Assembly: GCA_026712605.1 (NCBI GenBank)
Contig: JAPORL010000158.1
Location: 1 to 5,465, forward strand
Direction: 5' to 3'
Source: Pseudobdellovibrionaceae bacterium
Lineage (GTDB): Bacteria > Bdellovibrionota > Bdellovibrionia > Bdellovibrionales > UBA1609
Length of the DNA stretch: 5,465 bases
Below, piece after piece: positions 79 to 692 of this stretch (position 1 is the stretch's first letter; the number at the start of each line of letters is the position of its first letter). The notes under the pieces were generated by a model, which was given only the letters and a program-made list of their open reading frames with translations, was not told the origin of the DNA and did no database searches. The translations under genes were made by a program, and so were the position numbers.

Positions 79-193
79 GAAAAATAAATCTAAGTGAAAA
101 TTTTACAAACTTAAATGTTCAAAAAAACACCCTACTGCTGTTTATTTCGTCTTCAAACACATTCTATTTAGCTTAGAGTCAAACTATGAAAAA

Positions 194-583
194 TGGTCGG
201 GGAGACAGGATTTGCCTACTCCATTCGCTCGCATCAGGCTCGCTTATTGCGTAGGCTCTCTTCCCTTCGCTTAAAAAATCCTCCATGATTTTTTAACCTT
301 AATCTTTTGCCCCCAGCAAAAGCCTAAGGTCGCTCTCTCAATTCAAATCCTAATTTTCCCTGTAAAAGATTCTTCTATTTAGCTTAGAGTCAAACTATGA
401 AAAATGGTCGGGGAGACAGGATTTGCCTACTCCATTCGCTCGCATCAGGCTCGCTTATTGCGTAGGCTCTCTTCCCTTCGCTTAAAAAATCCTCCATGAT
501 TTTTTAACCTTAATCTTTTGCCCCCAGCAAAAGCCTAAGGTCGCTCTCTCAATTCAAATCCTAATTTTCCCTGTAAAAGATTC
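194..583 (-). ncRNA. Candidate structured RNA downstream of tRNA-Pro (rtT-like, two units)
   Basis: If transcription from the tRNA-Pro promoter continues past 616, the transcript would contain two identical structured segments. In copy 1 the pairings visible are: 271-280 with 287-296 (10 bp, 6-nt loop); 304-310 with 316-322 (7 bp, 5-nt loop), extended by 297-301 with 325-329 across a small internal loop; 214-219 with 251-256 (6 bp); and a long-range closing pairing of 207-214 with 344-351 (8 bp). Copy 2 has the same pairings shifted by 211. I see no clear G+C-rich terminator with a U-run at the far end, so the 3' end is unknown. Expression is inferred only from position behind a tRNA promoter. 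Confidence 0.3.
201..222 (-). other. T-arm/acceptor minihelix-like hairpin in repeat copy 1
   Basis: On the minus strand GGAG (222-219) can pair with CTCC (204-201), and AGG (217-215) with CCT (209-207), around the loop CAAAT. The tRNA-derived CCCGACCA tail follows through 194. The spacer sequence next to the tRNA fragment thus partly replaces the lost 5' strands of the T-arm and acceptor stem. The same hairpin is at 412-433 in copy 2. It competes with the other pairings of the same bases (214-219 with 251-256, 207-214 with 344-351), so its formation is uncertain. Confidence 0.35.
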
Positions 584-615
584 TTCTATTTAGCTTAGAG
601 TCAAACTATGAAAAA

Positions 616-692
616 TGGTCGGGGAGACAGGATTTGAACCTGCGACCCTCTGGTCCCAAACCAGATGCGCTACCGGACTGCGCTACTCCCCG
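616..692 (-). tRNA. tRNA-Pro (anticodon UGG)
   Basis: The minus strand folds into a complete 77-nt cloverleaf: acceptor CGGGGAG/CTCCCCG, a D-arm with GCGC/GCGC stem, anticodon stem TCTGG/CCAGA around loop TTTGGGA, T-stem GCAGG/CCTGT around TTCAAAT, discriminator A and an encoded CCA (618-616). The anticodon UGG lies at 658-656 and reads proline codons. All stems pair, with one G-U in the T-stem, so the gene looks functional. Its last 21 nt are repeated twice further downstream in the 211-bp array. C1 pairing with G72 and an A73 discriminator match bacterial tRNA-Pro identity. Confidence 0.97.

Follow-up and report, generated by a model that had tools for sequence, protein, structure and literature searches.

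The repeat array downstream of a tRNA-Pro gene in the DNA analyzed here contains, in duplicate, a structured element about 150 nt long, which belongs to a family scattered through the phylum. Members of this family usually end in sequence copied from the tRNA gene behind which they lie. We consider the element to be probably non-autonomous and mobile, inserting at tRNA 3' ends with both of its arms made afresh from each target.

The window analyzed was the entire 5,465-bp contig (C82) of a 1.35-Mb draft genome, G000 (251 contigs, 89.6% complete). A tRNA-Pro(UGG) gene was located at 692-616 on the minus strand by ARAGORN and Rfam (69.6 bits with Rfam), and the array that follows it comprises the features below.

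616-692, minus strand: tRNA-Pro(UGG) gene, which hosts and anchors the array; the repeated tail runs from C56 to the encoded CCA (636-616)
567-615, minus strand: linker from the tRNA to the first element; its initial 32 nt (615-584) recur after every tail
373-583, minus strand: copy of the 211-bp repeat nearer the tRNA, as framed in the original prediction, from self-comparison
415-565, minus strand: first structured core (model R1, 139.3 bits)
553-566, minus strand: left arm of the first copy, antisense to the tRNA-Pro T-arm (10-nt exact antisense match)
507-541, minus strand: hairpin P2 of the first copy (predicted fold)
483-506, minus strand: hairpin P3 of the first copy (predicted fold)
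425-467, minus strand: helix P4 of the first copy, from the family consensus, with paired steps alternating with tandem G.A; its outer stem is not formed in the single-sequence fold of this copy
405-425, minus strand: right arm of the first copy, a sense copy of tRNA-Pro from C56 to CCA
162-372, minus strand: second 211-bp repeat, identical to the first
204-354, minus strand: second structured core (model R1)
194-214, minus strand: right arm of the second copy, a sense copy of tRNA-Pro from C56 to CCA
162-193, minus strand: third copy of the 32-nt start of the linker, where the array ends

Self-comparison confirmed the two identical 211-bp repeats described 3' of tRNA-Pro(UGG) in the original prediction: positions 162-372 and 373-583 are identical across 211 bp as assembled, and an exact tandem repeat of this length is not due to chance. 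The additional 53-bp partial copy described there (584-636) does repeat the first 53 bp of the 211-bp unit with 100% identity, but it is the last 21 nt of the tRNA gene itself plus 32 nt of flanking sequence. This stretch of tail and 32 nt occurs three times in the window, one occurrence holding the tRNA-Pro's own end, and there are two extra tails beyond that of the gene. In the sense of the tRNA, the gene is followed by 32 nt, 158 nt and a tail, then again by 32 nt, 158 nt and a tail, and finally by a last 32 nt. Near the start of each 158-bp block lies an antisense copy of the tRNA T-arm, AGGATTTGAA (562-553 and 351-342, minus strand); the element copy in the window has a complete right arm, while its left arm amounts to this 10-nt antisense match. 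No ORF of at least 60 aa overlaps positions 162-692, and an Rfam scan of the window (E<=1) returned only the tRNA. The remainder of the contig carries two ORFs without a Pfam match and genes for NamZ, glutaredoxin 2 and DNA photolyase. A second short repeat, of the form TTCGGATTTGAACACA-stem-TGTGGCAAAA, was noticed at 2195-2239 and looks like a REP- or MITE-like hairpin; it has 39 exact matches in G000, 11 in G004, two in G031 and none in the other 44 genomes of the bacterial family. The reversed pattern gave no match, and the stem varies with compensation as judged by eye.

The 158-bp spacer between the tails represents a single copy of the structured element, which is about 150 nt long. It is not unique to the window: a DNA search of 98 genomes found homologues, and the first ten cores aligned with a mean column identity of 76%. 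A tRNA could be read at eight of the ten spacer-match loci fetched first, and in all eight the element lay 3' of the tRNA on the same strand. Two covariance models were built, R1 from ten cores and R2 from 29 cores; their E-values are rough and all model searches were made within one phylum. R1 matched 15 of the 47 genomes of the bacterial family, with 17 matches in G004 and 13 in G016. R2 matched 27 of 140 genomes of the order (E<=1e-3) and, across the phylum, 78 of 368 genomes representing 51 of 181 genera (E<=1e-4); it missed G013, a carrier according to R1. The number of copies per genome ranges from 0 to 18, and carriers with named records are Bdellovibrionales metagenome assemblies. Tandem units of the family are also present in other genomes. 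In ten related loci only tRNAs scored above the Rfam cut-off; 18 further matches were all below it, the best being a microRNA model over the tRNA-terminator hairpin of locus L064 (E 0.00048, 33 of 86 bits).

The position of the matches relative to tRNA genes was then determined for 55 of the 57 R1 matches, the two weakest being dropped, and for 47 matches elsewhere in the phylum, the 40 loci of that set having been picked from among the R2 matches listed. In the bacterial family 36 of 55 matches lie directly 3' of a tRNA gene on the same strand (35 with such a tRNA at most 330 nt upstream and a readable T-loop, plus locus L121, in which none was readable), and in the rest of the phylum 31 of 47 do so among the matches listed. 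For a 3-Mb genome with 40 tRNAs, chance alone would place about 0.1 of 47 matches in this way, and the observed placement supports the model matches independently. A tRNA on the opposite strand was found at none of the 47 matches listed elsewhere in the phylum and at two of the family set, L134 and L125, the latter also having one on the same strand. The host tRNAs of both sets (55 matches, and 47 among the matches listed) represent 16 amino acids. The original prediction had proposed a search for the spacer in relatives and had named the lack of any tRNA-linked copy there as evidence against it; homologues were found, and the counts of 36 of 55 and of 31 of 47 among the matches listed show that such copies exist. 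Matches without a same-strand tRNA upstream in the fetched stretch numbered 19 of 55 in the family and 16 of 47 in the phylum among the matches listed; some are later units of arrays or lie at contig ends, some represent a variant form, and some seem to lie away from tRNAs.

Several other arrangements were observed at tRNA genes. A second locus in the window's own genome, L073 (contig C71, 1487-1299, minus strand), has the 3' part of a tRNA-Ser, identified by eye at a contig end, followed by a truncated element copy whose left arm is antisense to that tRNA-Ser. At L185, behind a tRNA-Thr of G004, a second copy of the tail lies 163 nt downstream and the hairpin between the two resembles only P3; this locus holds a shorter relative of the element or a remnant. 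At L121 (G038) the tRNA-Ser(gga) beside the element has an abnormal T-arm, and a normal-looking one is present in the element's distal tail. A different shared end, ATACCGGAGACATGGGTTACACTTT or similar, follows seven tRNAs of G004 (Arg, Asp, Gly, Pro, Asn, Glu and Met; loci L166, L170, L173, L177, L178, L183 and L190) and a tRNA-Gly of G031 (L306), several of them at contig ends, and may mark an insertion sequence likewise located at tRNA 3' ends.

The ends of the element depend on its host tRNA. As a rule, the right end repeats the neighboring tRNA in sense from C56, in the T-loop, to the end of the gene, and the left end is the antisense of this same segment. In the family the right arm matched its own tRNA at 15 or more of 16 positions in 26 of 35 cases, any other tRNA reaching at most 14; the remaining nine were decayed (7-12 of 16). 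Elsewhere in the phylum 14 or more of 16 positions matched in 22 of 31 cases among the matches listed. Left arms matched at 13 or more of 16 positions in 17 of 35 cases in the family and in 18 of 31 in the phylum among the matches listed, and in 26 of 35 the own tRNA fitted the left arm at least as well as any other tRNA. The starting points of both copies were determined in the 55 family matches and in 28 of the 47 phylum matches listed, of which 60 rows passed the filters. The direct copy begins 2-4 nt past T54 in 46 of 60 rows and the antisense copy between T54 and T54+3 in 51 of 60. In 29 of 60 rows the antisense copy extends as far as the tRNA end or beyond it, part of this length being the terminator's own stem; in these, tRNA tail, linker and left arm form one palindrome, which at locus L127 pairs at 34 of 35 positions. 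Tails lack CCA where the tRNA gene encodes none, indicating that they were copied from DNA or from precursor RNA, and copying from mature tRNA was therefore rejected. The terminal repeats vary by locus, tracking the host tRNA, and no constant terminal inverted repeats were found among the copies. Acceptor-stem mimicry as a function of the arms is doubtful, since in many copies the inner pairs are retained although the outer portion of the left arm has decayed.

In addition to P1, which is formed by the two arms, the fold comprises P1b, P2, P3 and P4. RNAalifold predicted 42 pairs from ten cores, 22 of them changed on both sides, and 40 pairs from 29 cores, 36 of them changed on both sides. The alignment of 29 cores (A4) was taken from the 57 R1 matches by score and by eye, excluding weak matches, class II matches and second tandem copies, so that its covariation counts favor good fits; in it 94.0% of cells are paired, compared with 72.6% after shuffling and no more than 43.2% with the partner strand slid, and none of 500 shuffles reached any of five measures. 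A further alignment of 13 matches (A6), which leans towards the structure because the matches were fitted to the model, had 90.4% of cells paired and changes on both sides in 33 of 40 pairs. In P2-P4, G-U pairs outnumbered A-C pairs by 46 to 4, indicating that it is the tRNA-sense strand that folds. In P4 two paired columns alternate with two that are mostly GA on both strands. P1b is a helix of the same kind, absent from the automatic structure; in its best register 43% standard pairs and 37% G.A gave 81% together, compared with at most 62% in the other eleven registers. Folded alone, the window copy gave z = -3.24 relative to shuffles, one of 200 being as good; its structure contained P1, P2 and P3 but lacked the outer stem of P4.

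Comparison of related genomes revealed sites with and without the element. The tRNA-Pro loci of G002 and G003, which belong to the window's genus, are without it; a homologue of the upstream gene adjoins these empty sites (74% identity over 975 bp and 66% over 507 bp), the synteny being restricted to the 5' side of the tRNA, as the 3' sides do not align. Two variant units precede the tRNA-Trp of G016, whereas the G038 locus, with an upstream stretch 84% identical, is clean. A model search of four fetched stretches of G038 and G031 at tRNA-Trp and tRNA-Gly, three of them shortened by contig ends, gave no match. In G301 the tRNA-Trp unit recurs as an identical 215-bp copy 2.3 kb away, where no tRNA was found. 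This ectopic copy is flanked on both sides by CCTGG, which corresponds to C65-G69 in the tRNA, and would fit the joining of a 210-bp circle where the two share a short match. Because identical repeats can be misjoined in drafts, as G301 and the copy-rich genomes are, the copy may instead reflect an assembly error.

The relationships among the cores were analyzed with 23 of the 29 A4 cores, the six without a known tRNA being left aside. The closest relative came from the same genome in 14 of 23 cases, a number never reached in 5000 shuffles of the genome labels, and from a tRNA for the same amino acid in 5 of 23. Mean identity was 0.709 between cores of one genome, 0.628 between cores of different genomes at tRNAs for the same amino acid, and 0.609 for pairs sharing neither. 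A maximum-likelihood tree of the cores had weak inner support (23-96), and the G004 copies did not all fall in one clade. In genus g37, six of seven copies lie behind tRNA-Gln, indicating that copies can stay for long; this pattern suggests long residence and possibly a role as RNA. At the tRNA-Gly of G016 both tails share a change absent from G031, which suggests gene conversion between the tail copies and would weaken tail identity as a clock. A second form, in which P2-P3 lie between a degraded tRNA copy and an intact tRNA, partly in tandem, was found in G016, G004 and G031 (L134, L137, L139, L142, L144 and L146-L148) at tRNAs read by eye as Ser, Arg, Trp, Gly and Ile. Its matches are weaker and mostly without the P1 arms; at L144 the acceptor stem of the degraded tRNA copy is altered but, as judged by eye, still pairs.

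Candidates for a partner enzyme or a vehicle were searched for in the carrier genomes, and no clear partner emerged among RVT_1 (searched in the bacterial family), Y1 (searched across the phylum) and PF00589, absences being provisional as the carriers are drafts. In the draft genome G000 no RVT_1, Y1 transposase or dedicated integrase was found, an absence that is likewise provisional; its two PF00589 matches, on contigs other than that of the window, are 291 and 300 aa long, which we take to be the size of XerC/D. A Y1 transposase acting in trans was rejected, PF01797 being absent (E<=1e-3) from five of the 15 family carriers (G000, G004, G016, G031 and G038), among them the two richest in copies, and present in the other ten. 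Spread by phages or plasmids was not supported either: the G038 core, the sole core tried, had no blastn match in phage and plasmid collections, and one exact pattern had no match in viral contigs. A pattern match in Bacteroidia (L162) was a chance match within a coding frame, without a tRNA. At L239 (G301) and L274 (G204), gene-bearing stretches of about 1.8 and 2.5 kb lie between element copies, with ORFs that by eye resemble toxin-antitoxin pairs, a C1-like protease and a repeat protein; between the two loci no shared gene stood out that would point to an autonomous version of the element.

The family could instead be a resident RNA gene, a tRNA-linked structured RNA with a role in the cell such as handling or sensing its own tRNA, the left arm being able to pair with the tRNA tail upstream or with the right arm downstream. 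The strong compensatory evolution of the sense strand, the arms mostly tied to the host tRNA and the six of seven g37 copies behind tRNA-Gln agree with such a role, but we judge it rather unlikely given the patchy distribution (78 of 368 genomes), the sister-species loci without the element, the many tRNA types occupied in a single genome, the tandem and ectopic copies and the terminator that, by eye, often stands between tRNA and element. The main text of an RNA-seq paper on B. bacteriovorus (PMC3627812) does not contain the word 'tRNA'. Still less probable is simple amplification in place by slippage, without mobility, as in the rtT repeats; these lie behind tyrT of E. coli and are known from one tRNA. 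The resemblance is in the general layout, in which a tRNA is followed by identical tandem units of about 0.2 kb that each include its 3' end, and slippage-type amplification is likely for the step from one unit to two. As an account of the whole family, however, it is extremely improbable: homologous cores lie at many other tRNAs, loci of sister species are without the element, and many tRNAs, an antisense arm, a phylum-wide fold and an ectopic copy set the family apart from rtT. Neither the window nor the ten related loci had an Rfam RtT match (E<=1), so membership of rtT was rejected. The original prediction had drawn the rtT parallel and taken the array for an independently arisen case of the same architecture; the likeness of layout and the distinctness from rtT hold, but independent origin undersells what is one family scattered through the phylum rather than a local amplification.

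Two further explanations also involve mobility. Retrons and other RNAs linked to reverse transcriptases are structured and have paired ends, and the primer-binding sites of LTR elements are antisense to tRNA 3' ends. The element shares these traits, and it could be that a reverse transcriptase copies its RNA, the tRNA 3' end binding to the antisense arm as primer; antisense matching of the left arm to that end extends over all or nearly all of its length in L127, L131, L141 and L234, and RVT_1 is commoner in carriers (9/15) than in non-carriers (10/32). We nevertheless hold this to be very unlikely, and a reverse transcriptase in trans was rejected: six of the 15 carriers, all drafts, have no RVT_1 match, and tails without CCA where the gene lacks it were not made from mature tRNA. 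Less improbable, though still unlikely, is a tiny tRNA-integrating element, a circle of about 210 bp made of tail, linker and core that a tyrosine recombinase supplied in trans would insert at the T-loop or at the junction of T and acceptor stems, the distal tail being the displaced tRNA fragment. Tyrosine-integrase islands are known in tRNA genes (Islander, PMC4383910), and the integration site of phage Ms6 lies in a tRNA T-loop (PMC1762012); the tRNA 3'-end target, the junction in the T-loop, the displaced distal fragment and the possible tandem arrays are all similar to what was found here. The displaced 3' fragment begins in the T-loop, the ectopic copy of G301 would fit a 210-bp circle joined over the 5-bp CCTGG, G004, G016 and G002 have several integrase genes at most 1 kb away from tRNAs, and class II copies beside 5' tRNA pieces recall the 5' fragments that Islander counted as the rarer kind (PMC4383910). 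On the other hand, a fixed tail moving to another tRNA would give a chimeric tRNA, and this reading leaves both the antisense arm and the change of host tRNA unexplained. The family has the displaced tRNA 3'-end copy at its distal boundary that is typical of tRNA-integrative elements, but neither an integrase in the unit nor a fixed attP tail for one tRNA, the tail following the host tRNA; G000 has only the two integrase matches of Xer size. A gene-less unit of about 0.2 kb, many tRNA hosts per genome, the antisense tail copy and the conserved fold also distinguish it from the islands. Of the two models in the original prediction, amplification with an RNA function and serial insertion at the tRNA 3' end with att-like cores, the latter came nearer, although neither of them foresaw the antisense arm, the fold or arms that change with the host.

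Insertion with arms rewritten from each target would account for these properties as follows. We denote tRNA positions 1-55 as A, C56 to the gene end as B, the linker or terminator as t, and the antisense of B as B'. The layout A-B-t-B'-core-B is seen in many copies and is, we infer, the outcome expected of a cut, a double joining and a strand exchange. The tRNA gene would be cut in the T-loop and the core joined to both strands of the downstream DNA, which would seal the downstream end with a hairpin; the sealed end would then be reconnected to the tRNA by an exchange of strands across the palindromic terminator, giving A-B-t-B'-core-B-t. The fold may be what the cutting machinery recognizes, and tandem units may arise by recombination between identical tails. 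The best fit is L127, whose layout is A-B-t-B'-core-B-t and whose arms are both complete. Seven of 11 G004 loci do not agree with the simplest form of the model, since their right arm is followed by sequence other than the linker terminator. The duplicated B might be read as a long target-site duplication, and at the ectopic copy of G301 the 5-bp CCTGG flanks the element.

REP/BIME hairpins and MITEs are short, multicopy, non-coding and foldable, and are presumably moved in trans. The element resembles them in all these respects, its movement in trans being likewise presumed, but its ends are host-tRNA sequence and it has no fixed terminal repeats; in contrast to REP/RAYT or IS200-type systems, five of 15 family carriers, including the two richest, lack a Y1 match. 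Most known transposable elements have constant ends and duplicate few target bases. We tentatively propose that the family may represent a new class of mobile element, a gene-less unit of about 0.2 kb found behind tRNAs across the phylum, whose ends would be rewritten in sense and antisense by fold-back repair with host enzymes. It is rated as new in kind, since the ends consist of sequence from the target in both orientations and what stays constant is an internal fold. A description of such an element was not found in a search of the open-licence literature with a few terms, which is weak evidence of absence.

Target-derived ends in both orientations would need an insertion mechanism that is not known to have been described. 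For Bdellovibrionales and their relatives, the family amounts to a fast-changing, strongly structured sequence beside many tRNA genes, which could disturb tRNA expression, accompany islands and break assemblies. Its many natural copies, each by a known target, provide material for reading the mechanism.
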